Below, in pieces: positions 10,341-35,353 of a DNA stretch of 64,000 bases. Under the pieces are notes generated by a model. The model did not search any database. It saw only the letters and a program-made list of their open reading frames with translations, and had not been told where the DNA came from. Location: positions 1 through 64,000 of the forward strand of contig CALIHW010000005.1 in the NCBI GenBank assembly GCA_938020525.1, in the 5' to 3' direction. The stretch comes from an uncultured Granulosicoccaceae bacterium. Its GTDB lineage: Bacteria; Pseudomonadota; Gammaproteobacteria; Granulosicoccales; Granulosicoccaceae. Numbering within the stretch: position 1 is the stretch's first letter; the number at the start of each line of letters is the position of its first letter. The position numbers and the translations under genes are program-made.

Positions 10341-10415
10341 ATTTGGCAGTAAACGTTTCGCCAAACCCCGGGCGAGATGCAACAACTTAAACTGGTTTAT
10401 TGTGAGGAGAAAACC

Positions 10416-11393
10416 ATGCGAAAGTTTATTAAGAAGCTGGCTATTGCAACAGTAGCCATTCCATTAATATTCAGTTTTACTGCATCGATAGCGCATGCAG
10501 AAAAGATCAAGATTGCACTGGCAGAAACGCCATCCGATGAGCTGGCTGCTTTTTTTGTCGCCTTAGAGCGTGCAAAAGCGAATGGCCTTGACTACGAGTG
10601 GACGGCGTTCTCTGATGAAGAGCTAGCGATTCAGGCAGTACTTAGTGGTCAAATGGATATCGGCTTTGGCACACCATACGCTGCCATGCAGAGATCCAAA
10701 GCACCGATCAGAATCATATTTCAGCTATCAAAACTGAAGTTCTTTCCGGTTACAACTAAAAAGTACAGTTCTCTGGAAGATCTGAACGGCGAGCCAATCT
10801 TGCTTCACTCACGCGGCGGTGGTACTGATTCTATTGCCAATGTAATCGAAGATAAGATGGGTATTGAGTTCGGTGAGCGTTCTTATGTTCCGGGTTCATC
10901 TAATCGTGTTGTGGCTCTGGTAGCTGGACAGGCCAATGCGACTATCATTGATCTTTCCAACAAAAATAAGGTTATGCGTCAGCACGCAGACAAGTTTAAT
11001 GTGCTGCCAATGTTTGATGTTGAAGCAAGTGATGAAGCTTTGTTTGCCAACCTTGACTGGATCAAGGAAAACGCAGATGACGTACAAATTTTCGTTGATG
11101 CACTTGCCAGCACCTGGAAAGATATGAGTGAAGATCCGTCTATTGTAGCCAAGGAAACAAATCCTGATGGTCCGATAGGTCAGTTGCCTCCGGAAATTCT
11201 CGGTAACCTTGATGATTTCTACTCAGATGCTGTTGAAGGTGGTTTGTATAGCCCTAACGGCGGTGGTATGACCGCAGCCAAGGCTGATCTGGAATGGTAC
11301 AGCGCCGCGGGCCAGCTTGAAGGTGATATCGATAGCCTCAACATCGAGGACTTCTGGTACATGGACCCGCTGAACAAAGCGACCGGGCAGTAG
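10416..11393 (+). CDS. ABC transporter substrate-binding protein, NMT1/SsuA-like
   Basis: A 325-residue periplasmic binding protein. The start at ATG 10416 has GAGGAGA 5 bases upstream and opens a clear signal peptide (cleavage after IAHA). The fold is the type seen for taurine, alkanesulfonate, nitrate and thiamine-precursor binders: IKIALAETPSDELAAFF, then SGQMDIGFGTPYAAM, then EPILLHSRGGGTDSIANVIEDKMG split across the hinge. It heads the transport operon that ends in two sulfatase-fold genes, so a sulfated or sulfonated organic ligand is plausible. Ligand unproven. Confidence 0.88.
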   Translation: MRKFIKKLAIATVAIPLIFSFTASIAHAEKIKIALAETPSDELAAFFVALERAKANGLDYEWTAFSDEELAIQAVLSGQMDIGFGTPYAAMQRSKAPIRIIFQLSKLKFFPVTTKKYSSLEDLNGEPILLHSRGGGTDSIANVIEDKMGIEFGERSYVPGSSNRVVALVAGQANATIIDLSNKNKVMRQHADKFNVLPMFDVEASDEALFANLDWIKENADDVQIFVDALASTWKDMSEDPSIVAKETNPDGPIGQLPPEILGNLDDFYSDAVEGGLYSPNGGGMTAAKADLEWYSAAGQLEGDIDSLNIEDFWYMDPLNKATGQ

Positions 11394-11400
11394 TTAAACC

Positions 11401-11427
11401 AGTGCACCCGCTCTTTCTGGGTGCACT
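11401..11427 (+). terminator. Stem-loop between SBP and permease genes
   Basis: Perfect 9-bp repeat AGTGCACCC / GGGTGCACT with a 9-base loop, followed by TTTT, 7 bases past the SBP stop. It has intrinsic-terminator form and lies inside the operon, so it probably trims downstream transcription or protects the SBP message. Confidence 0.75.
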
Positions 11428-11455
11428 TTTCAGTGTCTGGGGAGGAATCCTGTTC

Positions 11456-12217
11456 GTGTTCAGTCGTTCACTTACTCTTAAACTGGTATCGGCTTTTGTT
11501 GTGTTTGGTGCCTGGGAAATTGCTGGCCGTATACCGGTAAGCTATGCGTTTCCGACTTTCATTGAATCGATGAAGGCTTTGTACGCCATGGTTGTTGATG
11601 GAAGTTTGTTTGAGGCTTATGCGGAGACCCTGAAGCCATTGGTGATTGGTGTTCTTATTTCTGCAGTGCTGGGTATCATCATTGGACTCTGGATTGGACT
11701 GAGTGCATGGTTTGACTGGTTATTCTCACCAATATTTATTGTGATGCAGGCAGCGCCACTCGCTGCACTCATCCCGTTGCTGGTGATGATTTACGGAATT
11801 GGGCTGACATCCAAGGTATTTGTCGTGTGTATTATGGCAATGCCGGTCATTGTATTGAATACATCCAGTGCGGTGCGTAACACACCGACATCATTTATTG
11901 AAATGAGTAAGTCCTTTCTGGCATCCCGTTGGGAAGTGCTCTTTAAAGTGATTATTCCTGCGGCATCACCGGTTATTTTTTCTGGTCTCAGGTTGGGTGT
12001 TTCAGCAGGTTTTATTGGGGCGATACTGTCAGAACTAAAAATCACCCCGACAGGGGTAGGGGATATTATTACCTTTAGCCGCTCCATTGCAGACTACGCA
12101 AGTATGTATGCGGCGATATTTTCCATCATCGTTCTTGCAGTTGTCTTTCTTAACTTACTAGAGATGCTTGAACGCGTCTTGTTCGAAGGAAATGTACGTG
12201 GCTATGCTTCAGACTAA
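11456..12217 (+). CDS. ABC transporter permease, first of pair
   Basis: A 253-residue inner-membrane protein with about six helices and the EAA-type cytoplasmic loop (EMSKSFLASRWEVLFKVIIPAASP, split) of SsuC/TauC-type permeases. The start at GTG 11456 is chosen because GGAGG sits 11 bases upstream. An earlier in-frame GTG at 11402 lies inside the terminator stem-loop. It overlaps the ATPase gene by 14 bases. With the second permease at 13008 it should form a heterodimeric channel, less common than the homodimers of most taurine/nitrate systems. Confidence 0.88.
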   Translation: MFSRSLTLKLVSAFVVFGAWEIAGRIPVSYAFPTFIESMKALYAMVVDGSLFEAYAETLKPLVIGVLISAVLGIIIGLWIGLSAWFDWLFSPIFIVMQAAPLAALIPLLVMIYGIGLTSKVFVVCIMAMPVIVLNTSSAVRNTPTSFIEMSKSFLASRWEVLFKVIIPAASPVIFSGLRLGVSAGFIGAILSELKITPTGVGDIITFSRSIADYASMYAAIFSIIVLAVVFLNLLEMLERVLFEGNVRGYASD

Positions 12218-13004
12218 TGCGTTGGCAGAAGATCTTGTACATCATCAAACCGACAATGCGGTTGCTGTCAGTGGTGTATCCAAGAATTATGGTGATGTAG
12301 AGGCGCTAAAGAATCTCTCGCTGGATTTTCCACGTGGTCAGCTTACTTCCTTGCTTGGCCCTTCGGGTTGCGGCAAGACCACACTGCTCAAAATAATTGC
12401 AGGGCTGCTTGAGCCGACTGACGGCGAAATTCTGGTTAATGGATCACCGGTTACTGGTCCGGGGGAAGATCGTGCGTTTGTGTTTCAGGATTTTGCATTG
12501 TTACCGTGGGCATCAGTATTGAGAAATGTAGCGTTCGGTCTGGAGTTGCGCGGTGTTGCTAGATCAGAGCGTGAAGATATTGCTATAAAATATATTAAGG
12601 AAGTTGGTCTTGATGGCTTTGAGAAAAGCTTTCCGCATGAATTATCGGGTGGTATGCGTCAACGGGTAGGGCTTGCACGTGCATTGTCTGTTGATTCGGA
12701 TGTCTTGCTTATGGATGAGCCCTTTTCAGCGGTTGATGAACAGACCCGTCGCAAGTTTCAGGAAGATCTTTTGGCGCTTGTCGCAAATGAAAACAAAACC
12801 TTTATATTTGTAACTCACTCTATTGAAGAGGCGGTATATGTCTCTGATCAGATTGCGATTCTTCTGCCAAGGCCCAGCAGAGTAGCCGACATTATCCGAC
12901 CAACCGGATTGAGAGAGAAAGACACGGCAAGTATTCGCAGAGACCCCGAGTATCTCGACATTGTTGACGAGATCTGGGCATCACTGAAGTCTTACGTGGA
13001 GTAA
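12204..13004 (+). CDS. ABC transporter ATPase, SsuB/TauB-like
   Basis: A 266-residue nucleotide-binding subunit. It has Walker A GPSGCGKTT, Q-loop VFQDFALLPW, signature LSGGMRQR, Walker B LLMDEPF and switch His in FVTHSIEEAV. The PW after the Q-loop is typical of the nitrate/taurine/sulfonate group. The start at ATG 12204 overlaps the permease end and follows GAAGGA at 12185; earlier in-frame starts lack a suitable site. It powers the two flanking permeases. Confidence 0.93.
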   Translation: MLQTNALAEDLVHHQTDNAVAVSGVSKNYGDVEALKNLSLDFPRGQLTSLLGPSGCGKTTLLKIIAGLLEPTDGEILVNGSPVTGPGEDRAFVFQDFALLPWASVLRNVAFGLELRGVARSEREDIAIKYIKEVGLDGFEKSFPHELSGGMRQRVGLARALSVDSDVLLMDEPFSAVDEQTRRKFQEDLLALVANENKTFIFVTHSIEEAVYVSDQIAILLPRPSRVADIIRPTGLREKDTASIRRDPEYLDIVDEIWASLKSYVE

Positions 13005-13007
13005 GCC

Positions 13008-13760
13008 ATGAAGGTTTTTGGTATTCGTCTGCCAGGGATGTCTTCACTTTTATTGTGGGGATTATTGTGGGAAATCGTTGGCCGTTCCGGCTATTCTTTT
13101 TTTGTGCCGCCACTTTCAGACGTAGTTACAACGCTGTTTGAAATCATTGGCACGGCGGCATTTCAAAAAGCTTTGTACGAAACCGCATATGCATTTTGCT
13201 CTGGTGTGTTCTTTGCCATTGTGATCGGTATTCCCACAGGTATTCTGATGGGTAAGAACCGGCTTATAGATGAGCTTTTGCTGCCGTGGGTAAATATTTT
13301 TCTCAGCGCACCATTAACTGCACTGGTCCCGGTGTTAATGGTGCTGTTCGGCTTTGGTATGAAGTCGATTATTATCACGACAACGCTCTTTGCGATCTGG
13401 ATCATTATTCTGAATGCCAGGGCGGGCGTTATGCAGATTAATCGTTCATTGGTAGAGATGGCCACTAGTTTTGGTGCAACACCTTGGGCTGCCTTTTCAA
13501 AGATCTACTTTTGGGCTGCACTGCCGGAAATTCTTGGCGGCGTTCGCATTGGTATTATCAGGGCTGTGAAAGGGGTGATTATCGGCCAACTGCTTATTTC
13601 TTTGGTAGGCTTTGGTGCTCTGTTTGAACTGTATTCTAACAACTTTCTGATGAAGCACTTCTGGGCTGTGTTGGTCGTCTTGTTTGCACTCGCCTTTACT
13701 ATCTCCGAGTTTCTGGCTTACCTTGAAAGACGAGTTTCTTACTACGCTGCCAAGCGTTAA
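13008..13760 (+). CDS. ABC transporter permease, second of pair
   Basis: A 250-residue permease of the same SsuC/TauC-like family as the 11456 gene but clearly divergent from it. It has about six membrane helices and the cytoplasmic coupling loop EMATSFGATPWAAFSKIYFW. It starts 3 bases after the ATPase stop. The order SBP-permease-ATPase-permease implies a heterodimeric channel. A 155-base gap separates it from the sulfatase-fold genes. Confidence 0.9.
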   Translation: MKVFGIRLPGMSSLLLWGLLWEIVGRSGYSFFVPPLSDVVTTLFEIIGTAAFQKALYETAYAFCSGVFFAIVIGIPTGILMGKNRLIDELLLPWVNIFLSAPLTALVPVLMVLFGFGMKSIIITTTLFAIWIIILNARAGVMQINRSLVEMATSFGATPWAAFSKIYFWAALPEILGGVRIGIIRAVKGVIIGQLLISLVGFGALFELYSNNFLMKHFWAVLVVLFALAFTISEFLAYLERRVSYYAAKR

Positions 13761-13915: not shown

Positions 13916-15214
13916 GTGCCTGTTATCGAACATCGCAATATATTATTCTGTCTGTTCGATTCCTTAAGCCTGAAAGATTTTGACCAACTGGAATGTGCCG
14001 GTGCGCTGCCGGCATTGTCCTGTCTGCGATCAGACGGTGTGTTCTTCAATCGTTGCTATACACCCTGTCCTGAAAGTAGTCCTGCGCGTGCAAGTGTTTT
14101 TACAGGGCTGGATCCCGCGGTACACGGGCTGTGGACAAACGGTGTCGCACTACCCCATACGGAAACCACATTTTCTCAACTTCTAAAGAGTGCGGGGTAT
14201 TCAACTTTTCTGGCAGGGCGCTATCAGTTGGCCGGTGTGTCTCGATGGACGACAGAACATGTTCCAGTCAGAGACTTTGAACAAATGGCTTGGGCGCACG
14301 GGCCTTTGCATCGATCGCGGCAGAACGCATACCTCAACTGGTTGAAACAAATCGCGCCTGAAGATTATTCCAGTATATTCACAACGCAGGCCAATCCTGA
14401 TAAAACGCAGCTGTCGCATCAACAAAAAACAGCCTACGAGGCATTGCCAGATGAGTTGAGCTTTAATCATTGGGTTGGTAAAAGTGCAAGTAACTGGATT
14501 AATAAATCGATTGATGATAAGCCTTTGCTTGCAATAGCCGGATTCTGTGTGGGTAACGATCTGGGTGCAGAGCCCCATCCAGATGGTGATGGTGAGGGTG
14601 TTAGTGAGATTGCATTGCGACAGGCAGATACGGCAATCGGAAAAATTGTGGAGCACCTACGTGCCAGTAGCCGGTCGAAAGACACTGTGATTGTAATCGC
14701 CTCTGCTAGAGGTAACTGTGATTTCGCGAGTGGTGACAATCAGATGAATGAGCGTTCCATTAGGGTGCCATTGCTCTTTAGCTATCCTGGTTGCGATCCG
14801 CGGGTTGTAGATTCACTGGTATCGACGATCGACATTGCACCAACTGTTATGGAGCTGGCAAATGTGGTGCGAGGTGGACGAACGCAAGGTTGTTTGTTGC
14901 CAGCTGTTTGTAACGATACAGAAGCGACAAGGGATTGGGCTATGACCCGGCTGCGTACAAGTACTCTTTGCGGTGCGCGTAACTGGAAAACATCGTTCTG
15001 TTTAAATAAATGGAAACTAGTGACGCAGCACAACGCGAGTGCAGATGGTGGCGATAAATTGCGCTTGTACGATCTTGAATCGGATCCAGAGGAACAGAGT
15101 AACCTTGCGCTCGATCAAACTTACGCGGGTACCCTCGAATCTATGATCGATCAGATGATAGACGCACGTTGTGCTCTGGAAGATCGAACTGAACCACGTA
15201 TTGCTGAGTTTTAG
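13916..15214 (+). CDS. Sulfatase-fold protein lacking catalytic residues (probable pseudoenzyme)
   Basis: A 432-residue member of the alkaline phosphatase/sulfatase superfamily, cytoplasmic (no signal peptide). By alignment with the neighbour at 15221, most active-site residues are changed. The modified Cys is Ser54 in SSPAR. The GKxH pair is Arg102/Gln104. The metal-binding DH of SDHG is Ala264-Arg265 in SARGNCD. The following Lys is absent, and the DPHHP motif is NDLGAEPH. The fold landmarks (PARASVFTG, THxVPL-like RVPLLFSYPG, DLESDPEEQSNLA) remain, and the frame is open over full length with normal codon use. It is more likely a maintained binding or scaffold partner than a decayed gene. 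GTG start, weak ribosome-binding site; only 6 bases separate it from the active paralogue. Confidence 0.82.
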   Translation: MPVIEHRNILFCLFDSLSLKDFDQLECAGALPALSCLRSDGVFFNRCYTPCPESSPARASVFTGLDPAVHGLWTNGVALPHTETTFSQLLKSAGYSTFLAGRYQLAGVSRWTTEHVPVRDFEQMAWAHGPLHRSRQNAYLNWLKQIAPEDYSSIFTTQANPDKTQLSHQQKTAYEALPDELSFNHWVGKSASNWINKSIDDKPLLAIAGFCVGNDLGAEPHPDGDGEGVSEIALRQADTAIGKIVEHLRASSRSKDTVIVIASARGNCDFASGDNQMNERSIRVPLLFSYPGCDPRVVDSLVSTIDIAPTVMELANVVRGGRTQGCLLPAVCNDTEATRDWAMTRLRTSTLCGARNWKTSFCLNKWKLVTQHNASADGGDKLRLYDLESDPEEQSNLALDQTYAGTLESMIDQMIDARCALEDRTEPRIAEF

Positions 15215-15220
15215 GCGAAT

Positions 15221-16708
15221 ATGCAAACTTCCAAAAAACGCCCAAATATACTTTTTATTTGTACAGACCAGCAGCGTGGTGACAGTCTACGTTGTACTGG
15301 TGCTACATGGGCAGTCACACCCAGTCTTGACAAATTGGCGGGTGAGGGTGCGTTGTTTAAAAATTGTTATGTACAGAATCCTGTATGTAGTCCTTCAAGG
15401 GCAAGTTTGTTTACCGGCAAGTATGTAGCAAACCATGGGCTTTACGCTAATGGCGTACCATTGCCTGTTAATCAAAAGATGTTTACTCGAACATTGGCTG
15501 ATGCCGGTTACGACTGCGGTATGATTGGTAAGCAACATCTGTCTCCTTGTGACAACTGGCAGACGGAACCGCGTCGTGATGATGGCTATCGTTACTTTAA
15601 ATGGGCGCATGGACCAAATCATCGTGCATTGGAGAATGACTATCACGCGTGGCTGCGCTCTACACAGCCAGAGATTCATGCACAGATATTTCCAGAAGTT
15701 GGTGCCAATGAAAGTACCGCCTACGGTAACAAGGCAAAAATGGGTACACCGATAGATTCTGTGCCAAAGGAAGCCCATTACTCTCATTGGGTAGCAGATT
15801 GTGCGCTTGAGTTTATTAATCACGAGCGTGCGGAAGATGAGAGTTTTTGTCTGGTAGCCAATTTTTTTGATCCGCATCATCCTTTTGGCGCACCGCAGGA
15901 ATTCCGTGATCTGATTAATACTGATGCGATACCTGATCCCAATACACGTGATGATGAACTGAGTAATAAGCCGCCTGAGCAAACGTTTTATTCAGAAAAA
16001 AGTTATGCTGGTGTGGCTCCCGGCTTTAAGGACTATACGCAAGAGCAGATTCGCGAGATCAGGGCGCAGTACTGGGCCATGATTGCCCTTATCGATTATG
16101 AGATCGGGCGTATCTTAAGTGCGTTGGATAGTGCCGGGTTGGCTGAAGATACATTGGTGGTCTTTACCTCCGATCATGGTGAAATGCTGGGTAATCATCA
16201 ACAGTTACTAAAGGGGCCGCAGCTCTATGATGATCTCACGCATGTGCCGCTGATTGCCAGATGGCCTGGGAAGGTCACAGCAGGGCAAATTGTTGATGAG
16301 TTGGTACAGTGGGTTGATTTGCCAGCGACTTTTCTTGATGCATCTGCGTGTGCAAGCGATAACAGCATACAGGGTGATTCACTCCTGCCTCTGATAACAA
16401 CTCAAAATAGCGCGTGGCGAGACTGGGCAATAAGTGAATACAGGGATTCCGGTTTTACTACTGATCCTAAAATTATGACAACCATGCTCAGGTATGAGAA
16501 CTGGAAACTGATCATCTGGCACGGAGCGCCTGCAACCAACGGGCAACGTAATGGGGAGATGTATGATCTCTCTAATGACCCGCACGAACTCTTCAACCTC
16601 TTTCACGAGCCTGAGTATGCAGAAACTCGTAGAAAGTTAAAGATAAAGCTACTTGATGTGATGGCTGAAACCGAGGATCGTACTCAATCACAGGTCCGTA
16701 GTTGGTAG
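15221..16708 (+). CDS. Cytoplasmic Cys-type sulfatase
   Basis: A 495-residue type I sulfatase with a full active site: metal ligands in CTDQQRG (Asp16, Gln17), formylglycine site Cys56 in CSPSRASLFTG, Lys104/His106 in GKQHL, Asp318/His319 in TSDHG and Lys331. The CxPxR form calls for an FGE, which is present at 24292. There is no signal peptide, so it acts in the cytosol on an imported sulfate ester. The C-terminal block YDLSNDPHELFNLF is typical. Substrate class (sugar sulfate or choline-sulfate-like) is not readable; the phosphonate/sulfatase boundary within the superfamily is a residual doubt. Confidence 0.93.
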   Translation: MQTSKKRPNILFICTDQQRGDSLRCTGATWAVTPSLDKLAGEGALFKNCYVQNPVCSPSRASLFTGKYVANHGLYANGVPLPVNQKMFTRTLADAGYDCGMIGKQHLSPCDNWQTEPRRDDGYRYFKWAHGPNHRALENDYHAWLRSTQPEIHAQIFPEVGANESTAYGNKAKMGTPIDSVPKEAHYSHWVADCALEFINHERAEDESFCLVANFFDPHHPFGAPQEFRDLINTDAIPDPNTRDDELSNKPPEQTFYSEKSYAGVAPGFKDYTQEQIREIRAQYWAMIALIDYEIGRILSALDSAGLAEDTLVVFTSDHGEMLGNHQQLLKGPQLYDDLTHVPLIARWPGKVTAGQIVDELVQWVDLPATFLDASACASDNSIQGDSLLPLITTQNSAWRDWAISEYRDSGFTTDPKIMTTMLRYENWKLIIWHGAPATNGQRNGEMYDLSNDPHELFNLFHEPEYAETRRKLKIKLLDVMAETEDRTQSQVRSW

Positions 16709-17086: not shown

Positions 17087-17123
17087 ATTCCATATATGGC
17101 ATTCTAGATTTCATATATGGAAT
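17087..17123. promoter_or_regulatory. Paired CATATATGGAAT operator over the IclR start codon
   Basis: ATTCCATATATG (17087-17098) and its exact inverse CATATATGGAAT (17112-17123) are separated by 13 bases. Each half contains the self-palindromic core CATATATG. The start codon of the IclR gene (17117) is part of the right half, and no ribosome-binding site fits before it. A dimeric or tetrameric regulator bound here would block its own gene. Confidence 0.65.
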
Positions 17124-17968
17124 CTGTAGCGATTAAATCAGAGACGTCTCTGAGCCCTACCGCTCGTACTTTGCAGGTATTGGAGTACATCATGGCGGCA
17201 GGGCCGGGGCCTATTAAGCAGATAGATATTGCTCGTGATTGCGGCTTGTCTCCCTCCACGCTTAATCGCATTATCAAGACGCTTTCAGATTGGGGTTACC
17301 TTTTCCGTACCAGTGAGAAGTACTGTGTGCGTAACTTCCGTATGGAGCGCAATGTTCCGATGTCGGAAACTTATCTTGCCAAGCTCGACGACACAATGCG
17401 TGCATTGTCTGAGCAACTTGGTACCTCCGCCGAGGTAGTGGTTGTCGCTGGGCATGAACTGCTTTGGCACTCCAAAACAGAGCACCCAGACCCTGAGGTT
17501 CTGATTCGTGCAAACGTCGGTTTTAGGCGATCATTGTATGAACTGGATTCACTGTCGCAGCTCTATCTCAGTCGGCTTGACTGGGAAGATCTCGAATCAC
17601 GTTTTTATACTGATGGATTCTTTGCCACCGTACGTGATGCTGATGAGCAAACGCGCAGGCTGAGTGCAGGTGCAGTTAAAAAGCAACTGGCATTGGTTCA
17701 GCAACAGACATTCGCCGCTGATCTCGCAGGCAATCATATGGGTATCCGTCGATTTGCTACGGTGGTTGAAGACCCTGATGGCAAGTTTCTGCACTTACTG
17801 ACACTGGCGGAGCCGGTTGGCGATTTAAAAAACGAAAAAGCCCACGTAAAGCGCTATCGCGATGCGCTGCTCGAAGCACGTGACGGCTTAACCGAACTTG
17901 TTTACACCGAAAACCCCGCGTACAGACCGCGGCCGAAACATCATGTTATGCCACAACGAGGCGGTTAG
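17117..17968 (+). CDS. IclR-family transcriptional regulator
   Basis: A 283-residue regulator with an N-terminal winged helix (about residues 13-70; KQIDIARDCGLSPSTLNRI as recognition segment) and a C-terminal IclR effector domain about 90-260. The effector domain is more divergent than usual. It lies 38 bases upstream of the sugar SBP gene of ABC system 2, on the same strand, which makes that operon the obvious target. The start codon is inside a perfect paired palindrome, suggesting autorepression; the message would be nearly leaderless or weakly translated. Confidence 0.85.
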   Translation: MESVAIKSETSLSPTARTLQVLEYIMAAGPGPIKQIDIARDCGLSPSTLNRIIKTLSDWGYLFRTSEKYCVRNFRMERNVPMSETYLAKLDDTMRALSEQLGTSAEVVVVAGHELLWHSKTEHPDPEVLIRANVGFRRSLYELDSLSQLYLSRLDWEDLESRFYTDGFFATVRDADEQTRRLSAGAVKKQLALVQQQTFAADLAGNHMGIRRFATVVEDPDGKFLHLLTLAEPVGDLKNEKAHVKRYRDALLEARDGLTELVYTENPAYRPRPKHHVMPQRGG

Positions 17969-18006: not shown

Positions 18007-19281
18007 ATGAAAAGATTACTCACGACGCTATTGTCTGCATCACTGTTTGCGGGTGTAGCAGCCACTACAACTGTACATGCACAAGACGAAATCAATGTCG
18101 TCATGTTTGGCATGCCTTACACCAAAGGCCTTCAAGCCATCGCCGGTGATTTTGAAAAAGAAACCGGTATCAAGGCCAATATTGATGTTATAGGTCAGGA
18201 TGTTTTTGAAAACCGTATAACCCTTTCATTCACTGGTAAAAGCGGTGATATCGATGTAGTGCATACACCGGTTATTCAGGTGCAGCGCTGGGTTGCTGCA
18301 GACTGGTTAAAGCCGATCACCGCCGAAGTAGATGGTATGGCTGTGAAGTCAGACATCATGGCAGGACCGCTGGATGCCTATAAGATCAATGGCGAACAAT
18401 GGGCGGTACCTTATATGGCAGCGACAGGTCTGATGACTTATCGCAAAGATATCCTCGAAGCTGCCGGGGTTGAAGTGCCACAAACGTGGGAAGACATGCT
18501 TGCAGTTGCCGCGAAAGTTCACTCCGACGAGACTGCTGCAATTGCCATGCGTGCGGTGCCGGGGCAGGGTTTTAATATGTTTATCTTCCCAATGGTGATG
18601 CGTGCCTACGGTGGTAAATTCTTTGAAGACTACACCGCAGGTGATCTGACACCGGCTATCAACTCACCAGAAACGCTCGAAGCGTTGAATGTCTATATGA
18701 AGCTGCTTAACGAGTACGGACCACAAGGCGCTGGCAACTTTAACTTTGCGGAAGTTCAGGCTGCAGCGCAAAATGGCCAGATTACTTTTGCAGTCGAGGG
18801 TACAGGAATAGCAGCTTCATTAGTTGACCCTGAGAAAAGTAAGTTTGCTGATAAGACCGGAATTACGTTGCCACCTGGTGGGCCGGCTGGACGATCTCCG
18901 GCGATTGCAGTGCATGGGCTGGGTATTCCCGCATCGGCAAAGAATCCAGAGCTATCTACAAAGTTTATTGAATGGGCCGTAAGTGCCGAGACGATGACCA
19001 AGATTGCGCTGGCACAGCCGTTCTCTAACTTTACTACCCAGTCAGTTGCCCAGAACGAAGAGGTGATCGCCAAGTACTCAAAGGTACATCCTGATTTTCT
19101 GGCGGTACAGGCTGAAGCACTGAATCTGGCGGTCGGTCATTACCGTCCGTTGCTGCCGGAATGGCCAGCGCTCGGGCAGGCGATTGGTGAAAACATCAAC
19201 GGCGCACTCAACGGTTTGATGTCACCGGAAGAAGCACTGGAAGCCGCAGAGCAGGAGATGCGAGACATTCTCGGGCTCTAG
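18007..19281 (+). CDS. ABC transporter sugar-binding protein (family 1)
   Basis: A 424-residue periplasmic binding protein with a signal peptide (cleavage after VHA) and a strong ribosome-binding site, GGAGGAAGG. The fold is the MalE/family-1 type: GLQAIAGDFEKETGIKA, the aromatic-rich cleft region WAVPYMAATGLMTYRKDIL (split), and the C-terminal EEALEAAEQEMRDIL helix. It serves the MalFG-like permeases downstream. Its operon includes a sulfatase and FGE, so the likely cargo is a sulfated sugar or related polyol. Ligand unproven. Confidence 0.92.
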   Translation: MKRLLTTLLSASLFAGVAATTTVHAQDEINVVMFGMPYTKGLQAIAGDFEKETGIKANIDVIGQDVFENRITLSFTGKSGDIDVVHTPVIQVQRWVAADWLKPITAEVDGMAVKSDIMAGPLDAYKINGEQWAVPYMAATGLMTYRKDILEAAGVEVPQTWEDMLAVAAKVHSDETAAIAMRAVPGQGFNMFIFPMVMRAYGGKFFEDYTAGDLTPAINSPETLEALNVYMKLLNEYGPQGAGNFNFAEVQAAAQNGQITFAVEGTGIAASLVDPEKSKFADKTGITLPPGGPAGRSPAIAVHGLGIPASAKNPELSTKFIEWAVSAETMTKIALAQPFSNFTTQSVAQNEEVIAKYSKVHPDFLAVQAEALNLAVGHYRPLLPEWPALGQAIGENINGALNGLMSPEEALEAAEQEMRDILGL

Positions 19282-19371: not shown

Positions 19372-20262
19372 ATGACATCAAAATCACAACCTCGTGCAAC
19401 CGCGGAGCTTGAGCGCGGTTATCGAAACATGTTGCTTCCAGCAGTTTTTGCAGTGGGGATATTCGCCATTGTGCCACTCGCTGGAATGCTGGCGCTTTCA
19501 TTTAGTGACTATCACTTAATACGCGGTACCAATTGGGATTTCGGCTTTAAGAATTTTGTCCGTCTGGCATCAGACAAGCGTTTAATGGGGTCTGTCTATG
19601 CGATGTCTGTTTTGTCTTTCTTTGGGGTGTTAACACAGGTTCTCATTGGTGCTGCGATTGCTGTGGGTTTGAGTAAAATTGTTGGTAAGTGGCGCCTGGG
19701 GCGGGTGCTCTTTCTGTTGCCTTATGCGGTGCCTCATGTAGCAGTGGCGCTTATCTGGTTGTCATTGTTTACCCCGACCCTTTCACCGGTAAATGCGTTT
19801 TTCGATTTATTCGGTATAACGGTGCCATCTTTTCTGACCACACAAAACGGTGCATTGTTAGCCATTGTTATGGCAGATACCTGGACCAACTTTCCGTTCA
19901 CCATGCTAATTATTCTTGCGGCTTTGCAGGGTATATCACCAGATCTTGAAGAGGCGGCGGCATTGGATGGTGCTACCCGTGTGCAGTCTTTTTTCTACGT
20001 GACTTTGCCACTATTGATACCCGCATTTTTAATGGTGACGCTGTTTCGGTTTATTGATTCGCTAAAGCACTTCCCAATGATCTTCGTCATGACCAAAGGT
20101 GGGCCGGGCAGATCAACGCAGGCGACTAACTATTACGCCTATATACAAACGTTTCAGAATTCCAATGTCGCCTACGGTGCCGCCATCGCGGTGACACTGT
20201 TTATTGTGGCGGCTTTTATCAGTTTCTATGTGGCCAGGCTTAATCAGCGGATAACATCGTGA
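19372..20262 (+). CDS. ABC sugar permease, MalF/UgpA-like
   Basis: A 296-residue permease with six membrane helices and the EAA loop (LEEAAALDGATRVQSFFYVTLP, in two parts) characteristic of carbohydrate uptake family 1. It pairs with the 20259 permease; the two genes overlap by four bases (GTGA), which usually means coupled translation and equal amounts. Confidence 0.94.
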   Translation: MTSKSQPRATAELERGYRNMLLPAVFAVGIFAIVPLAGMLALSFSDYHLIRGTNWDFGFKNFVRLASDKRLMGSVYAMSVLSFFGVLTQVLIGAAIAVGLSKIVGKWRLGRVLFLLPYAVPHVAVALIWLSLFTPTLSPVNAFFDLFGITVPSFLTTQNGALLAIVMADTWTNFPFTMLIILAALQGISPDLEEAAALDGATRVQSFFYVTLPLLIPAFLMVTLFRFIDSLKHFPMIFVMTKGGPGRSTQATNYYAYIQTFQNSNVAYGAAIAVTLFIVAAFISFYVARLNQRITS

Positions 20263-21089
20263 TTGATAACACGTCTTCATTTCGGGTTAAAAAAGCATTT
20301 GGTGTCACCATGATGCTTGTGCTGCTGTTTTTTGCAGCACTGCCAACCGTCTGGGTGTTGATCATGTCATTCAGGGAGCAGGCGGCAATCTTTGAGCCGA
20401 TCTGGGAAAGCCCGTTGGCTGTGACGCTAGACAACTACAGGGGTATTGCACGCTCCGATTTCCCTAAAGCATTGTTAAACAGTTTTATCTGTGCTGGCAG
20501 CTCAACATTACTTGCAATGATAGTCGGAGTGCCTGCGGGTTTTGCACTCGCCAAGTCACGTCTGTCTGGGAAGTTCTATGCGTCCTGGCTATTGTTGTTG
20601 TTACGCATGGCACCACCGGTCGGGTTTGTGATACCGCTGTTCCTACTCTATGTGAATGCAGGTTTAATCGATACTTACTTCGGCTTGATTGTCGCGTATA
20701 TGACGCTGACACTGCCGTTGATTGTCTGGTCTATGTGGAATTCATTTGCGCAGGTCCCGGATGAATTGATCGAGGCTGCGATTATGGACGGTGCGACTCT
20801 TGGCAAAGCGTTTATGCAGGTTGCACTTCCCGCAGCAAGACCCGGTGCAGTAGCGGCTGCCATACTGGGTTTTCTCATCGTCTGGAATGACTTCTTCTAT
20901 GCGCTGATTATCACTCGATCATCAACGGTTACTGCACCTGTAGCGGTAATGAATTTTATTTCCTACGATAGTGTTGACTGGGGTTCAATTGCTGTTGCGA
21001 GTATTGCACTTACATTGCCTATATTGCCGCTTATGGTAATCGCGAATCGCTATATTGTTCAGTCCTTATCGGGCGCGGTTAAAGGATAA
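20259..21089 (+). CDS. ABC sugar permease, MalG/UgpE-like
   Basis: A 276-residue permease starting at GTG 20259 inside the stop region of its partner. Six helices; the coupling loop reads ELIEAAIMDGATLGKAFMQV. The terminal segment ends IVQSLSGAVKG, as in MalG-type subunits. The sulfatase gene begins 3 bases after its stop. Confidence 0.94.
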   Translation: MIDNTSSFRVKKAFGVTMMLVLLFFAALPTVWVLIMSFREQAAIFEPIWESPLAVTLDNYRGIARSDFPKALLNSFICAGSSTLLAMIVGVPAGFALAKSRLSGKFYASWLLLLLRMAPPVGFVIPLFLLYVNAGLIDTYFGLIVAYMTLTLPLIVWSMWNSFAQVPDELIEAAIMDGATLGKAFMQVALPAARPGAVAAAILGFLIVWNDFFYALIITRSSTVTAPVAVMNFISYDSVDWGSIAVASIALTLPILPLMVIANRYIVQSLSGAVKG

Positions 21090-21092
21090 AGA

Positions 21093-22586
21093 ATGTCAGA
21101 TCGACCGAATATTGTTTTTATACTCACCGATCAGCAGCGCTATGACACTATCGCTGCGATGGGCTTTGATCACATGATCACTCCCAATCTTGATCGGCTG
21201 GCGCGTCAGGGTACCGCTTTTGAAAACATGTATATCACAGCGCCTTCCTGTGCGCCGTCTCGTGCTTCGTTGTTTAGTGGTGTCTATCCACATACCAATG
21301 GTGTATTCCGCAACGATGAGCCATGGAACTACTGCTGGGTAAAAGACCTTGCGGAGGGTGGTTATCGAACTGTTAATGTTGGCAAAATGCACACCATGCC
21401 GGTAGAAGGGCCGTTTGGTTTTCATGAGCGGCACGTCGTAGAAAACAAGGATCGTGATCATCCCAATCTGCCGTTCTATCTTGATAACTGGGATAAAGCC
21501 TATTTTTTACGTGGTCTGCGTAAGCCATCACGCGTATCTCAACGTGAGCGTGATGATTACGATGAACTACTTGGTGCATGGGTGTGGGAGCACGATGAGA
21601 TTATGCACCCCGATGTTTTTGTCGGTCAGATGGCGTGTTGGTGGATAGACCGTTATCCGGGTGATGATCCTTTCTTTCTGCAAGTCGGTTTACCGGGGCC
21701 ACACCCGCCTTACGATCCAACAAAAGAATACCTTGAGATGTATGCGGGCCGTGAAATGCCGGCGCCTATACCGCCAGACCCTGAATCTCAACCTGAAGCC
21801 ATGCAGGAGTTACGTAAGTTTCACCTTGGTGAAGATGCTGATGGTGTTGTTCATCTTGCCGACCCTACGCCTGAACAGTCACAGCGGCAGAGAGCGCATT
21901 ACTACGCCAACGTGACCATGATCGATAAGCAGGTTGGCGATATTCTGGACACGCTTGAGAAGCGCGGCGCACTGGATAACACAATAATCATCTTCACCTC
22001 AGACCATGGTGATTGCCTTGGTGATCACGGCCATTCACAAAAGTGGAATATGTATGAACCCACCGTTCATGTACCAGCGTTGATTTCGTGGCCCGGGCGT
22101 ATACCTGAAGGGCAGCGGGTGAGTGATCTGGTAGCGTTGTTTGACCTTGGGCCGACAATACTTGAATACGCCGGTGTTGAACCGCCAGCGTGGATGGAGG
22201 CAACTTCACTGCAACCCTATCTAGGGGGTACACGGCAGGCAGAGCGGCAACGGGTGTATGCAGAGCACTCTAATGATGCGCTGCTTACCGGTACGCGCTT
22301 CATGACAATGATTCGTGATGGTGCAATAAAACTGGTGCATTTTGTCGATTCTGAAAATGGTCAGTTGTTTGATCTTGATAATGATCCGGATGAGCGAGTT
22401 AACTTATGGCACGACCCGTCCTATGCTGAAAAACGTGCGTATCTGATCAATGAAATTCTTAACTGGCGACTGGAGAGCAGCCTGCATACACAGGGATTTA
22501 CAGAAGCCTGTATGCGTGGTGAGCAGGCAATGATGTCGCCACCGTGCATACCTGCACGAGGCCAGCATCGTGAAGGAAGCAGATAA
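21093..22586 (+). CDS. Cytoplasmic Cys-type sulfatase within ABC operon
   Basis: A 497-residue type I sulfatase with the full residue set: Asp13/Gln14 (LTDQQRYD), Cys53 of [11 protein letters not shown], Lys98/His100 (GKMHT), DH of [12 protein letters not shown], and Lys in QKWNMYE. No signal peptide. The gene is embedded between permease and ATPase genes of a sugar ABC transporter, with gaps of 3 and 2 bases. This is strong evidence that its substrate is what the transporter imports. Needs FGE maturation, supplied by the gene at 24292. Confidence 0.94.
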
Positions 22587-22588
22587 CA

Positions 22589-23590
22589 ATGGCGAGGATT
22601 GAGCTTAAAAATGTTGAGAAGGCATTCGGTAAAGTAGAAGTTATCAAACCGTTGAATCTTGATATAGAAGACGGTGAGTTTGTGGTTTTTGTCGGCCCCT
22701 CAGGATGTGGCAAATCGACACTGCTCAGACTAATTGCCGGGCTCGAAGATACGACCGCAGGTACCATTGAAATAGATGGCAAAGACTCAACCAGCATGCC
22801 TCCGGGTAAGCGTGGTCTTGCCATGGTGTTTCAAAGCTATGCGTTGTACCCACATATGACCGTACGAAAAAACATTGCTTTTCCTATGCGAATGGCGAAG
22901 ATCCCTCGTGCCGAACAGAAACGGCGAATAGAATCTGCAGCGGAAGTACTCAACTTGACGGACTATCTTGATAGAAGACCTGGCCAACTCTCTGGCGGGC
23001 AGCGTCAACGAGTCGCAATTGGTCGTGCGATTGTACGTGAGCCGTCAGCTTTCCTGTTTGATGAGCCGCTTTCAAACCTTGATGCTGCCTTACGAGTCGG
23101 GATGCGCATGGAGATCACTGAACTACACAAGCGGCTTGAAACAACAATGATCTATGTCACGCATGATCAGGTTGAAGCAATGACAATGGCAGACAAAATT
23201 GTGGTTCTGCATGATGGTGTTATTGAGCAGACAGGTAGTCCGCTGGAGCTTTACAACAGGCCGGTGAATCTTTTTGTGGCAGAGTTTATTGGTTCACCGA
23301 AGATGAATATTATCAATGGTGAGCAAGCATCGGGAATTGATGCGTATAAAATTGGAATCAGGCCCGAGCATATCAGTATCTCAACTCAGAGCGGACTGTG
23401 GAAGGCAACGGTTGGTGTCGCAGAACATCTGGGTAGCGATACTTTCTTTCACGCTAAAGTAGAGGGAATGTCTGATCCAATAACCGTACGTACAGACGGT
23501 AATATGCAGGTTGACCGTGGTAGTACTATTTATCTTTCACCGGATGAACAGAAAGTTCACCGTTTTGACTCTCAGGGTATACGCATTTGA
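22589..23590 (+). CDS. ABC transporter ATPase, UgpC/MsmK-like
   Basis: A 333-residue ATPase: Walker [10 protein letters not shown], signature LSGGQRQR, Walker [12 protein letters not shown], switch [10 protein letters not shown], and a C-terminal TOBE/MOP domain (about 235-333) with [11 protein letters not shown]. That tail is typical of sugar importers and is often a docking site for regulation. It completes ABC system 2 with the 18007, 19372 and 20259 products. Confidence 0.95.
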
Positions 23591-23602
23591 TTAATATTTA
23601 AC

Positions 23603-24295
23603 ATGTCGCGGATTCAAGAGGTATGGGAACTGTTGGACTTTGAAATTGTGGTCGAGGAAGTAGAGTCAGGGGTGCTTCGATACCAGCTCTATGTGTTGAA
23701 TCAACCTGTTACTTTCAGGCAGTTTATCAACGCCCTTGCCAGTGATAAGGCCAGTGATAAGGCCAATGATAAGGCTAGCGATAAGGCCAGTGATACTGAG
23801 CTTCGACAGAAGTTTAATTCTTTACTTACTGAAGCGCCGTTTGAAGCGTATCGCATTGAGACACCCGCGTTATCGTTGTTGTCTCTTGATGATCCGTTCG
23901 AGTTTGTACTAATTAATGCACCGGCGTTGGTGACACGTACGGCAGATGCGTTGACCTTCGCACAGTATTTTAAAGAGCCCGGTGTAGAGGTAGTCGAGTT
24001 TAAGAGCCTCGGTGGCGATGCAATCCTGCTAGCGCCGACACCAGTGGGTGGACATGAATCTTACAATCACCTCGCAGTCTTTGTTCGTAATGCTCCTGAG
24101 TCTCAGGTGCATTCGTTGTGGCAAATGGTGGGGCAGGTGCTGATGCGGGTTGTGTCTGCAGAACCGCGCTGGTTCAACACAGAAGGAAGTGGCGTCGCGT
24201 GGCTGCATGTTCGTATTGACTCTCGACCGAAGTACTACGGTTATCAACCGTACAAAGTTGTGCATGGCGGGTGTGGTCCGGAGGGTTTGAAATGA
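23603..24295 (+). CDS. DUF6940-like protein with internal SDKA repeat
   Basis: A 230-residue soluble protein whose C-terminal half (FKSLGGDAILLAPTP, then HSLWQMVGQVL, then WLHVRIDSRPKYYGYQPYK) matches, from memory, the family catalogued as DUF6940; the family number should be checked. Function unknown. Residues about 46-64 are four copies of (S/N)DKA encoded by a 12-bp tandem repeat, inserted in a surface loop. Its stop overlaps the FGE start (ATGA), so the two are translationally coupled. This suggests a part in sulfatase maturation or in handling the desulfated product. Confidence 0.7.
   Translation: MSRIQEVWELLDFEIVVEEVESGVLRYQLYVLNQPVTFRQFINALASDKASDKANDKASDKASDTELRQKFNSLLTEAPFEAYRIETPALSLLSLDDPFEFVLINAPALVTRTADALTFAQYFKEPGVEVVEFKSLGGDAILLAPTPVGGHESYNHLAVFVRNAPESQVHSLWQMVGQVLMRVVSAEPRWFNTEGSGVAWLHVRIDSRPKYYGYQPYKVVHGGCGPEGLK
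23738..23794 (+). repeat. In-frame 12-bp tandem repeat
   Basis: Four full units and a partial fifth of GCCAGTGATAAG, with the third unit GCCAATGATAAG and the fourth GCTAGCGATAAG. The reading frame is preserved because the unit is 12 bp. Length variation between strains is likely. Confidence 0.9.
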
Positions 24296-25224
24296 CCTGC
24301 TGTCCACCGTCGTCATCATCACCTGCTAAAGAGGCTTTTAAACCAGTGGTGTTCACAGCGTCGGAAGCCGTAGTGCGGCCTGCATCTGTCAGGGTACCTG
24401 GCGGCACGGGTTTGATAGGGACAGACAATCCTTACATCCGGTTTGATGGTGAAGGCCCGTTAAGAAAAGGCCAAGTGAGTGCTTACCGTATGTCTAAAGG
24501 CTCAATAAGCAATGCTGATTTTGCCGCGTTTATAGCGGATACCGGTTACATATCAGAGGCGGAGCACTATGGCTGGTCGTTCGTATTCTGGAGTCAGGTA
24601 CCGGACTATGTCGGTGATACACAGGCAGTACCTGGTGCTACCTGGTGGCGTCGGGTTGATGGTGCATCATGGCGATCTATTACCGGACCTCGTTGTACAT
24701 TAATTGATGATTTACAGGATCATCCGGTGGTACATGTTTCATGGAATGATGCTGTGGCCTATTGCTCCTGGGCAGGGGGCAGGTTGCCGACAGAGCTTGA
24801 GTGGGAGCATGCAGCTCGTGGTGGTCTAACAGACGCACGCTTTCCCTGGGGCGATGCAGAGCCGAATGATGAAGAGAATATTTTATGTAATATCTGGCAA
24901 GGCCGTTTTCCACAAAACAACACGTTGAAAGATGGCTATCAAACCACGGCACCAGCATTGTCGTTCGAGCCGAATGGATATGGCTTGTACAATATGGTTG
25001 GTAATGTGTGGGACTGGACTGCGGACCCGCATCGAGCTCAAGGTACACGCCGTGCATCTGGTTCCAATCATTTACAGGCGGACAATCCCAACAAAGTTGC
25101 AAAGGGTGGTTCTTTCCTGTGCCACAAAAGCTATTGCTACCGATATCGTATTGCAGCGCGAATAGGCAATGCAGCGGACAGCACAACCACTCATATGGGG
25201 TTCAGGGTGGTGTGGGATGACTAA
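24292..25224 (+). CDS. Formylglycine-generating enzyme
   Basis: A 310-residue true FGE. The catalytic copper-binding Cys pair is present as Cys277 and Cys282 in GGSFLCHKSYCYRYR. Other SUMF1 landmarks are PTELEWEHAARGG and NMVGNVWDWTAD. The enzyme oxidises the Cys of CxPxR motifs to formylglycine, so it should activate the sulfatases at 15221 and 21093. The start at ATG 24292 overlaps the previous stop; an upstream in-frame GTG at 24271 is less likely. The N-terminus MTCCPPSSSS is not a signal peptide, so maturation occurs in the cytosol. Confidence 0.95.
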   Translation: MTCCPPSSSSPAKEAFKPVVFTASEAVVRPASVRVPGGTGLIGTDNPYIRFDGEGPLRKGQVSAYRMSKGSISNADFAAFIADTGYISEAEHYGWSFVFWSQVPDYVGDTQAVPGATWWRRVDGASWRSITGPRCTLIDDLQDHPVVHVSWNDAVAYCSWAGGRLPTELEWEHAARGGLTDARFPWGDAEPNDEENILCNIWQGRFPQNNTLKDGYQTTAPALSFEPNGYGLYNMVGNVWDWTADPHRAQGTRRASGSNHLQADNPNKVAKGGSFLCHKSYCYRYRIAARIGNAADSTTTHMGFRVVWDD

Positions 25225-31237: not shown

Positions 31238-32455
31238 ATGCTGCCGACTTGGCGTTGGTTCGGCCCGAACGACGCGGTTTCAATCGATGAGTTATTGCAG
31301 GCAGGAGTGCAGGGTGTTGTCACTGCGTTGCACCACGTGCCGCCGGGTCAAGTGTGGGCAAATGAGCAGATTGGGCAACGTCAACTTGAAGTCTCGCGTA
31401 TGGCTGATGGGTCTCGCTCAAATCTTCAGTGGCAGGTCGTTGAAAGCCTGCCGGTTTCAGAAGATATCAAACGGCAAACCGGTGATTGGAAACAGCATAC
31501 TGAAAACTACCGTCAAAGTCTGACCAACCTGCATACCGCGGGTATTGAGGTCGTCTGCTACAACTTCATGCCGGTACTCGACTGGACGCGCACCGATTTA
31601 GCTTATCGATTGCCAAATGGTGCAACCTGCATGCGTTTTGATTTTACGGACTTTGCAGTGTTTGATATTCACCTGCTTGAGCGTGATGATGCTGCTACAG
31701 ATTTCCCTGAAGAAGTTGTCGAATCAGCCAATGTGCGTTTTGCAGGTATGTCTGATTCAACCAAGGCAGCGCTGCTGGATAATCTTGTTTGTGGATTGCC
31801 CGGGACTGATGTCACTCTGTCCATAGAAGATGTGCGTTCACATCTGTCTGCTTATAACAACATCTCTGCTGAGCAATTGCGTGCCAATTTAGTAGACTTT
31901 CTGGCGGAGATCGCACCACATGCTGAATCCCTTGGGATAAGGCTGTGCTGTCACCCTGATGATCCGCCTTATCCGTTGATGGGTCTGCCAAGAATCATGT
32001 CGACTGAAAAGCACTACCAACAAATACTGGACGCTGTCGATATAAATTCAAATGGTGTGACGCTTTGTTCCGGTTCCCTTGGCGCGCGCTCCGATAATGA
32101 TTTGCCGGGCATGATGCAACGACTTGGTGATCGTGTGCATTTTCTTCACCTGCGCAACGTGCAGCGTGAAAGTGATGCGATGTTCGGTAGCTTCCATGAG
32201 TCTGAGCATCTTGATGGTGGCACAGATATGGTCGCGTTGATTGCTGCAATACTTGAGGAAGAGCACAAGCGTAAGCTTGCGGGCCGCTCCGATAATTCGA
32301 TTCCATTCAGGCCGGACCACGGGCAGAACATTCTGGATGATCACAAGCGTACTGTGCAACCCGGTTATCCTGCGATTGGACGGTTAAAAGGGCTTGCGGA
32401 GTTACGCGGTATAGAAACAACACTTAGCCATACGGCTCACGGTACTTTGTGCTGA
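31238..32455 (+). CDS. uxuA: Mannonate dehydratase
   Basis: A 405-residue UxuA-family enzyme that dehydrates D-mannonate to 2-keto-3-deoxygluconate. Family signatures: MLPTWRWFGPNDAVSI at the start, GIEVVCYNFMPVLDWTRTDL (split), LCCHPDDPPYPLMGLPRI around the metal site, and HLRNV and FRPDHGQ later. The ribosome-binding site is GAGGAGGAAGG, 9 bases before ATG. It overlaps uxuB by one base (TGATG). Confidence 0.96.
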   Translation: MLPTWRWFGPNDAVSIDELLQAGVQGVVTALHHVPPGQVWANEQIGQRQLEVSRMADGSRSNLQWQVVESLPVSEDIKRQTGDWKQHTENYRQSLTNLHTAGIEVVCYNFMPVLDWTRTDLAYRLPNGATCMRFDFTDFAVFDIHLLERDDAATDFPEEVVESANVRFAGMSDSTKAALLDNLVCGLPGTDVTLSIEDVRSHLSAYNNISAEQLRANLVDFLAEIAPHAESLGIRLCCHPDDPPYPLMGLPRIMSTEKHYQQILDAVDINSNGVTLCSGSLGARSDNDLPGMMQRLGDRVHFLHLRNVQRESDAMFGSFHESEHLDGGTDMVALIAAILEEEHKRKLAGRSDNSIPFRPDHGQNILDDHKRTVQPGYPAIGRLKGLAELRGIETTLSHTAHGTLC

Positions 32456-34002
32456 TGTGTGCTCGATTGACATCTATTGACGATGCAGGCTCGTCGGTGC
32501 AGAGACCAGGCTACGAGCCTGAAGAACACGGTATTGGCATTGTTCATATTGGAGTGGGGGCTTTTCATCGTGCGCATCAGGCAGTATTCACTGATGATGC
32601 GCTGGCTCAACACGGCGGTGACTGGCGAATTGCCGGTGTAAGTTTGCGTTCAAAAGAGATAGCTACCGAGCTTAATGCCCAAAACGGTTTATACACACTA
32701 ATTGAAAAGGGCCATGTGAATGGCAAGGCAGACACCACAGCAAGAATCATAGCGGCGATTGATCATGTCATAGCAGCGGAATCTGAAGCCACATTGTCAA
32801 TGCTGTGTGACCCCGGGGTGCGCGTTGTTACTCTAACGGTGACGGAAGCCGGTTACGGAATTGATCGAGAAAGCCGACTGCCGGATAAGAACAATCCAAC
32901 AGTTATGGCAGATCTTTTTGATCCGGCTAATGCTGTGGGAGTGTTAGGCCTGCTTGTCGAATCACTTTATCGTCGTCGTGAATCAGGGATTGAGCCTTAT
33001 ACAATACTGTCGTGCGATAACCTGCCGGCTAACGGAGAATTTCTGCGCGATGGTGTTGTCGGGTTTTCACGCATTGCCTATAACGATGAGCTGGCAGACT
33101 GGATCAAAGGCGCTGTAGCATTTCCGAACTCGATGGTTGATCGAATAACACCTGCATCCACCATTGAAACCTATAAAGACGCTAAAAGATTAACCGGTTG
33201 TGAAGACAAGGCTGCGGTTGAAACAGAACCTTTTATCCAATGGATTATTGAAGACACCTTTCACTCTGGCCGGCCAAATTGGGAGGCGGGTGGGGCGCTC
33301 TTCGTTGACGATGTAACGCAGTACGAGCGTATGAAACTAACGATGCTCAATGGTAGTCACTCAATGCTGGCTTATAGCGGGTATCTGACCGGCAATTCGT
33401 TTGTGCGTGATGTGATGCAGGATACGCATCTTTCACTGCTGGTACACCGGCACTTGCAAGCGTCAGCGGAGTTGTTACAGCCGTTGCCGGGTATGGATTA
33501 CAGTGACTATGTAAACGCTCTGGCTGATCGTTTTGCTAATCCGTCTATTGCGCATCAAACATTTCAGATTGCGAGCGATGGTACTGAAAAGCTGCCGCAA
33601 CGAATATTTCAACCAGCCATCGAAGCCCTCAATGCGAATAGTGACATCAGACCATTTGCATTTGCGACCGCTATGTGGATGCGGTTTTGTTTACAGAGAC
33701 AAGATGACGGTACAAGGTATGAATTGAATGATCCACGCGCTGATGAAATAGCACTCGCATTAAAAAACAATGATCAAGACGGATTATTACTTTCTAAAGC
33801 TATTCACAGGTTGCCAGAGTTCGTGCCCGTTGAGCTGAGTACGAATAGTTTATGGGAAGAGTCTGTTGCGGATGTTCTTGGTTTCGCGTTAAGTGATGGC
33901 TGTGCCGCTGCTGTGACACGGGAAGCTGAGATGTATTGCAGGATGCCAAAACATATCGCTAACGATCAAACAGAACCTGTTACAGCGTTGGGTGGAGGGT
34001 AA
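32455..34002 (+). CDS. uxuB: Fructuronate reductase / mannitol dehydrogenase family
   Basis: A 515-residue polyol dehydrogenase-type enzyme. N-terminal Rossmann part with GIGIVHIGVGAFHRAHQA (nucleotide site) and the family's catalytic Lys region KLTMLNGSHSMLAYSGYL, in which Lys, Asn and His are conserved. Immediate coupling to uxuA points to D-fructuronate reduction to D-mannonate (UxuB), although tagaturonate or mannitol activity cannot be excluded by eye. ATG 32455 lies inside the uxuA stop; a GTG two codons earlier is possible. Confidence 0.9.
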   Translation: MCARLTSIDDAGSSVQRPGYEPEEHGIGIVHIGVGAFHRAHQAVFTDDALAQHGGDWRIAGVSLRSKEIATELNAQNGLYTLIEKGHVNGKADTTARIIAAIDHVIAAESEATLSMLCDPGVRVVTLTVTEAGYGIDRESRLPDKNNPTVMADLFDPANAVGVLGLLVESLYRRRESGIEPYTILSCDNLPANGEFLRDGVVGFSRIAYNDELADWIKGAVAFPNSMVDRITPASTIETYKDAKRLTGCEDKAAVETEPFIQWIIEDTFHSGRPNWEAGGALFVDDVTQYERMKLTMLNGSHSMLAYSGYLTGNSFVRDVMQDTHLSLLVHRHLQASAELLQPLPGMDYSDYVNALADRFANPSIAHQTFQIASDGTEKLPQRIFQPAIEALNANSDIRPFAFATAMWMRFCLQRQDDGTRYELNDPRADEIALALKNNDQDGLLLSKAIHRLPEFVPVELSTNSLWEESVADVLGFALSDGCAAAVTREAEMYCRMPKHIANDQTEPVTALGGG

Positions 34003-34190
34003 TTTGGATAAATGCAAACACAATTCCCATGGCAACGACAAGAGATTAGTCCAGCAGGAAGTTCCTGTTTGTAAAGAAGTACGAAGTCAGATCGCAACCC
34101 CTATATCTGCTTCGCAAGGCCCGGTTGTCCGGGAGTTATCAAGCTTAATCGCGGTATAGCCGCATTTTTTTAAACCTTTTGGAGGATGTA

Positions 34191-35192: not shown

Positions 35193-35235
35193 ACCTTTTC
35201 GGTAACGGGCTTTTTACTCAAATGTCTTGAAGTTT

Positions 35236-35262
35236 CAGCGTGCCGTATTCAACGGCACGCTG
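35236..35262 (+). terminator. Strong stem-loop between dctP and dctQ
   Basis: Perfect 11-bp repeat CAGCGTGCCGT / ACGGCACGCTG with a 5-base loop and TTTTT directly after, 43 bases past the dctP stop. A textbook intrinsic terminator placed inside the TRAP operon. Confidence 0.85.
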
Positions 35263-35287
35263 TTTTTCTATAATTACTGTCACTAAT

Positions 35288-35339
35288 CACTTTCACTGGC
35301 CACTTTCACTGGCCACTTTCACTGAACACTCTCACTGAC
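35288..35339. repeat. 13-bp tandem array in the dctQ leader
   Basis: Four contiguous units of CACTTTCACTGGC: two identical, the third ending GAA, the fourth CACTCTCACTGAC. The array lies between the terminator and the dctQ ribosome-binding site, ending 2 bases before GGAGAA. Confidence 0.88.
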
Positions 35340-35353
35340 TGGAGAAATTCACC

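Follow-up and report, generated by a model that had tools for sequence, protein, structure and literature searches.

The window, that is, the whole 64,000-nucleotide stretch analysed (positions 1 to 64,000 of contig CALIHW010000005.1, from an uncultured Granulosicoccaceae bacterium), carries two neighbouring genes of the sulfatase fold. The first encodes a protein with a dismantled active site (PS) and the second an intact enzyme (AS), followed by a module of transport and sulfatase genes. The features concerned are the following.

13916..15214, + strand: PS, pseudo-sulfatase; GTG start, 432 aa, PF00884 fold, catalytic residues lost
14075..14077, + strand: Ser54 codon of PS, at the position of the formylglycine Cys; Ser in 6/11, Gly in 3/11 and Ala in 2/11 orthologues
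14219..14221, + strand: Arg102 of PS, in place of the catalytic Lys104 of AS; invariant in the 11 PS proteins
14291..14347, + strand: HRSxQNAYLxWL block of PS (WAHGPLHRSRQNAYLNWL), residues 126-144, second in conservation within the protein
14705..14710, + strand: Ala264-Arg265 of PS, in place of the metal-binding Asp-His of SDHG; Arg265 invariant
15143..15211, + strand: C-terminal tail of PS, residues 410-432, ending in IDARCALEDRTEPRIAEF; hyperconserved, final residues unfolded in the monomer model
15221..16708, + strand: AS, intact formylglycine-type sulfatase with CSPSR, SDHG and the K/H residues present and a diverged tail; proposed partner of PS
17117..17968, + strand: IclR-type regulator of the module
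18007..19281, + strand: sugar-type solute-binding protein (SBP_bac_1)
19372..21089, + strand: two ABC permease genes of the module
21093..22586, + strand: Sulf2, a second intact sulfatase, conserved in the module
22589..23590, + strand: UgpC/MalK-like ABC ATPase of the module
24271..25224, + strand: formylglycine-generating enzyme (PF03781), needed for activation of AS and Sulf2

The PS frame is unbroken over its 432 codons and ends 6 bases before the AS start. A first, sequence-only reading of this DNA had described it as a full-length sulfatase paralogue lying beside an active copy, and the profile search bears this out, with a PF00884 match of E=2.9e-25 for PS and a match to the same family for AS. 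The two proteins are 33% identical, and PS is 26% identical to Sulf2. An AlphaFold2 (AF2) monomer model of PS was obtained with a pLDDT of 85.1 and a pTM of 0.90, and its structure matches were sulfatases and hydrolases. Among the structures nearest to both PS and AS, in sequence and fold, are the dimeric arylsulfatases SpAS1/SpAS2 and the phosphonate monoester hydrolases (4UPI, 4UPL, 4UPH, 2VQR, 2W8S), which, unlike PS, are established active homo-oligomers with intact metal sites (PMC5870055). Both proteins scored well under the cut-off of the choline sulfatase family TIGR03417 (105.6 bits for PS and 207.1 for AS, versus 433.45), as did PS with the YejM/PbgA family NF038282 (36.6 versus 825 bits). 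In the model PS begins right at strand 1 of the fold, with no transmembrane N-terminal part of the YejM/PbgA type, and reading of the sequences revealed neither a signal peptide in PS or AS nor an N-terminal extension ahead of that strand.

Alignment of the window PS with AS showed all the active-site changes named in the sequence-only reading to be real: C56 is replaced by S54, K104 by R102, H106 by Q104 and D318-H319 by A264-R265, while K331 is absent, and no other Asp or His is conserved as a replacement in the metal site. Four features had been missed, namely the loss of the metal-site Q17 of AS (S16 in PS), the deletion of PHH and of the roughly 60 residues after it, the clade-wide extent of the nucleophile and metal-site changes, and the hyperconserved tail. 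Across the 11 PS proteins the metal Asp (D318) is Ala or Gly, the metal His is Arg in every case, K104 is invariably Arg, H106 is Gln or His, and PHH and K331 are lost. Neither the formylglycine precursor, nor the set of metal ligands (Asp, Asp/Gln, Asp, His/Asn), nor the Lys/His pairs of a catalytic type I sulfatase are found in PS. The occurrence of Ser, Gly or Ala at the nucleophile position, combined with Arg for the metal His in 11/11, indicates a clade-wide loss rather than a Ser-type sulfatase. What PS does retain is D15, R58 and H70, and it has gained the invariant arginines R102, R265 and R345, which suggest a remodelled, metal-free pocket.

The module surrounding the pair has the setting of an uptake locus for sulfated compounds. 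Genes for UxuA, a mannitol-dehydrogenase-family protein and a GlcNAc-2-epimerase-family protein also lie near it, and the overall gene content suggests sulfated uronate-containing algal material as a possible substrate. At 31238-37158 of the window, UxuA and the mannitol-dehydrogenase-family gene are accompanied by TRAP transporter genes, suggesting a uronate catabolic locus. Directly upstream of PS (10377-13760) are genes for an NMT1-type binding protein and taurine/nitrate-type ABC components, a block that occupies the same place in the closest relative (G014) and was not seen beside PS in the Rhodobacteraceae modules. A gene at 23603-24295, flanked by those for the ATPase and the formylglycine-generating enzyme, encodes a DUF6940 protein that contains an SDKA-type repeat.

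In 11/11 genomes found to carry it, PS is intact and AS is the next gene downstream, both within one conserved module of transporter and sulfatase genes; in two of these genomes AS is truncated by the end of a contig. The hosts are marine bacteria of two distant classes of Pseudomonadota: five Granulosicoccaceae (the window genome, G007, G014, G015 and G027), two members of another family of Gammaproteobacteria (G496, G1191) and four Rhodobacteraceae (G048, G049, G212, G293). In the phylogeny all PS proteins form one clade (support 100/100) and the AS proteins another. The linkage is obligate, in the sense that no module-type AS gene without PS was found in the genome samples searched wherever the upstream side was assembled (in G003 it is cut at the contig edge). 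Selection was estimated with tree-based codon models because pairwise dS was saturated for most pairs; over nine genomes, omega was 0.13-0.15 for PS and 0.06-0.07 for AS, and three-genome fits gave 0.14 to 0.23 for PS. The idea that a pseudoenzyme has been retained beside its active copy, in a gene pair recurring elsewhere under a dN/dS well below 1, is therefore upheld. No relative carries stops, and the one truncated relic belongs to a genome from which AS has also been lost (G035).

Within the module PS is the fastest-evolving gene, with 43-62% identity between genomes versus 70-98% for most other genes. The G035 relic (L014:943-1914) is a frame fusing the N-terminal third of PS to a piece of the formylglycine-generating enzyme, and looks like a deletion scar from module loss. 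In G049, a second copy of the module (L022:9221-11844) has AS split by a transposase-bearing insert and PS intact, the intact copy being on contig L023. A plasmid search returned no PS orthologue (best match 27%), and the tandem sulfatases of Falsirhodobacter were rejected as a dead/active pair since both contain the catalytic motifs.

Along the two proteins, the relation of their conservation reverses towards the C-terminal end. Over the whole protein, mean pairwise identity in the same nine genomes is 51.6% for PS and 75.5% for AS, whereas over the last 11 residues (EDRTEPRIAxF in PS) it is 92.7% and 59.3%, respectively. When columns present in both proteins are compared, the eight windows in which PS conservation most exceeds that of AS are all C-terminal, and it is essentially only in the tail that PS is the more conserved protein. 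Such conservation could be imagined to reflect the ribosome-binding site of AS, its start, or an overlap. This explanation was rejected, as third codon positions at same-residue pairs agree in 47% of cases in the tail versus 40% elsewhere; they vary about as freely in both, which points to constraint at the protein level. The tail is also poorly folded in the otherwise confident monomer model (pLDDT 33-62, falling below 50 at residues 428-432). A segment that is conserved, and yet unfolded when modelled alone, is as expected for one that docks on a partner. The paired AS proteins mostly have Gln for the tail Arg and Arg for Ala/Ser, and HRALEN at the internal block, where Ser134 and Gln136, retained in PS, are both altered. 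The AS tail is diverged but not absent: E485-D486 remain, as does a terminal Trp in most cases, so that AS may work alone.

AS relatives that have no PS partner gene offer a comparison. Two of them, from G025 and a second copy in G048, are 58% identical to AS and end in EDRSQPRVANW and EDRSQPRVSNW, both also having HRSPQNAY; these are the PS-like versions, and the paired AS proteins lack the PRV(A/S)NW end. Remoter unpaired homologues mostly retain the Arg and the terminal aromatic residue of the tail. Good unpaired controls are few, these two being the best, and a third (G115) is weaker because its N-terminus is damaged. A related situation was met in G199, where two AS-like paralogues lie 5.4 kb apart with other genes between them (L070:4479-6044 and 11415-12947), the dead copy upstream. 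The dead copy has lost catalytic residues (D16 to S, C to S, K104 to R, PHH to PQG, K331 to N) and kept the tail EDQTRPRVAKW, whereas the active copy has its catalytic residues intact and has lost the tail (TDDLSAERLGCD). Since the dead copy groups with PS in the tree (support 97/97), the same division of features is present in an early branch, and the G199 paralogues are possibly an early stage of the PS/AS split.

A function for such a tail is known from the choline sulfatase BetC of Sinorhizobium meliloti (6FNY), which has the same fold as PS and AS. In this enzyme the C-terminal tail of one protomer crosses to its neighbour and forms part of the active-site tunnel there (Leu499, Leu502, Arg507), and removal of 12 residues lowered the native-substrate kcat/KM about 2500-fold, removal of 23 being worse (PMC5870055); gating was confirmed in PMC9063841. 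BetC is a homotetramer of identical active protomers, whereas the arrangement proposed here would combine a dead, tail-conserving protomer with an active, tail-diverged one. On this precedent we propose that PS is the non-catalytic subunit of a PS-AS heteromer, its tail completing the AS active site, a reading that we hold to be somewhat probable. Heterodimer formation had been one of several options of the sequence-only reading and appears to be the best fit; complementary loss, and the retention of the C-terminal tail by the dead copy, are added to it here.

In the proposed model, the ancestor would have been a homo-oligomeric sulfatase in which the tail of one protomer closed the active site of its neighbour, as in choline sulfatase. 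Duplication of its gene would have allowed the roles to separate, the AS branch retaining the formylglycine/metal site while its tail became free to diverge, and the PS branch losing the metal site while keeping the EDRTEPRIAxF tail and the HRSxQNAYLxWL block. In the resulting heteromer the PS tail would complete the substrate pocket of AS, which would then depend on PS to be fully active or specific towards a sulfated compound taken up through the ABC transporter of the module. The pattern suggests that the dead copy may provide the tail now missing from the working enzyme, one enzyme being split over two genes. The physical complex, the direction of tail exchange, the effect on activity and the substrate are what we infer. 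The more complete scenario, in which complementary loss from a homo-oligomer partitioned a composite sulfatase active site between an active, tail-diverged subunit and a dead tail donor, with G199 at an early stage, is more tentative, being perhaps a little short of an even chance. AF2 prediction of a read-through fusion of PS and AS (in frame in the window) gave a pTM of only 0.66 and a mean pLDDT of 70, with the tail still disordered at values of 27-37, figures obtained from a shallow AS alignment and with a 3-residue linker.

The principle invoked has been experimentally shown in trypanosomatids, where dead paralogues activate active ones by forming heteromers, as in DHSc/DHSp and AdoMetDC/prozyme (PMC3663545, PMC5201418); DHSc/DHSp, with a 3000-fold activation in the heterotetramer (PMC3663545), is the closest working parallel. 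Those systems are eukaryotic and of unrelated folds, whereas the case for PS-AS is drawn from sequence. PS shares with prozymes the loss of catalytic residues in a retained fold and purifying selection beside an adjacent active paralogue.

Other roles for PS were considered. It could bind sulfate or the sulfated substrate without a metal, the invariant R58, R102, R265 and R345 holding the anion, and would then store, present or sense the ligand, possibly without touching AS. Four invariant arginines that occupy once-catalytic positions or lie close to them (R58 being retained and the others new), with D15 and H70 kept, agree with such a role, as does the bacterial YejM/PbgA/LapC, a pseudo-hydrolase of arylsulfatase fold without catalytic residues that senses lipid A (PMC13125744). 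YejM is the closest bacterial dead relative by fold, but it is membrane-anchored, has no active-sulfatase partner, and its family is matched by PS only far under the cut-off. Anion binding accounts neither for the tail being the most constrained part of PS, nor for its being unfolded in the monomer, nor for the same tail loss in AS and the G199 active copy, and R265 may merely stand in for the metal as the partner of D15. We regard this role as unlikely, and still more improbable is that of a decoy or adaptor of the formylglycine-generating enzyme, in which PS, by keeping the xPARASLFTG recognition motif without its Cys, would regulate that enzyme or recruit it for AS. PARASVFTGLD does count as one of the best-conserved stretches of PS, and the module has a gene for the enzyme (window 24271), but the motif doubles as a structural helix at the active site, and both the PS tail and the AS tail loss would be left unexplained.

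Residual catalysis by another route, as a Ser-type or metal-free hydrolase, is strongly disfavoured. The SSPAR of the window PS fits the (C/S)xPxR pattern, but the Ser is Gly or Ala in 5/11 orthologues, on which ground the Ser-type reading was rejected, and none of the 11 has the metal Asp-His, the catalytic Lys or PHH. Finally, decay under relaxed selection could be suspected from the fast evolution of PS and from the G035 relic. This relic sits in a genome without AS too, and PS is intact in 11/11 genomes, with an omega of about 0.14 and invariant blocks, and kept in two classes, so that dN/dS and intact frames refute the relaxed pseudogene reading.

The best-documented cases of dead paralogues activating a live partner are eukaryotic. 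The earlier remark that such pairs are little described in bacteria agrees with the literature searched, as no report of a pseudo-sulfatase partner was found among 5.39 million open-access publications. If correct, the proposal would provide a clear-cut example from bacteria, in a large and well-studied enzyme family, together with an early-branching pair, and the transition from homo-oligomer to obligate hetero-oligomer would become testable. It would also mean that AS-type sulfatases of marine genomes may appear inactive in assays when expressed without their dead partner.
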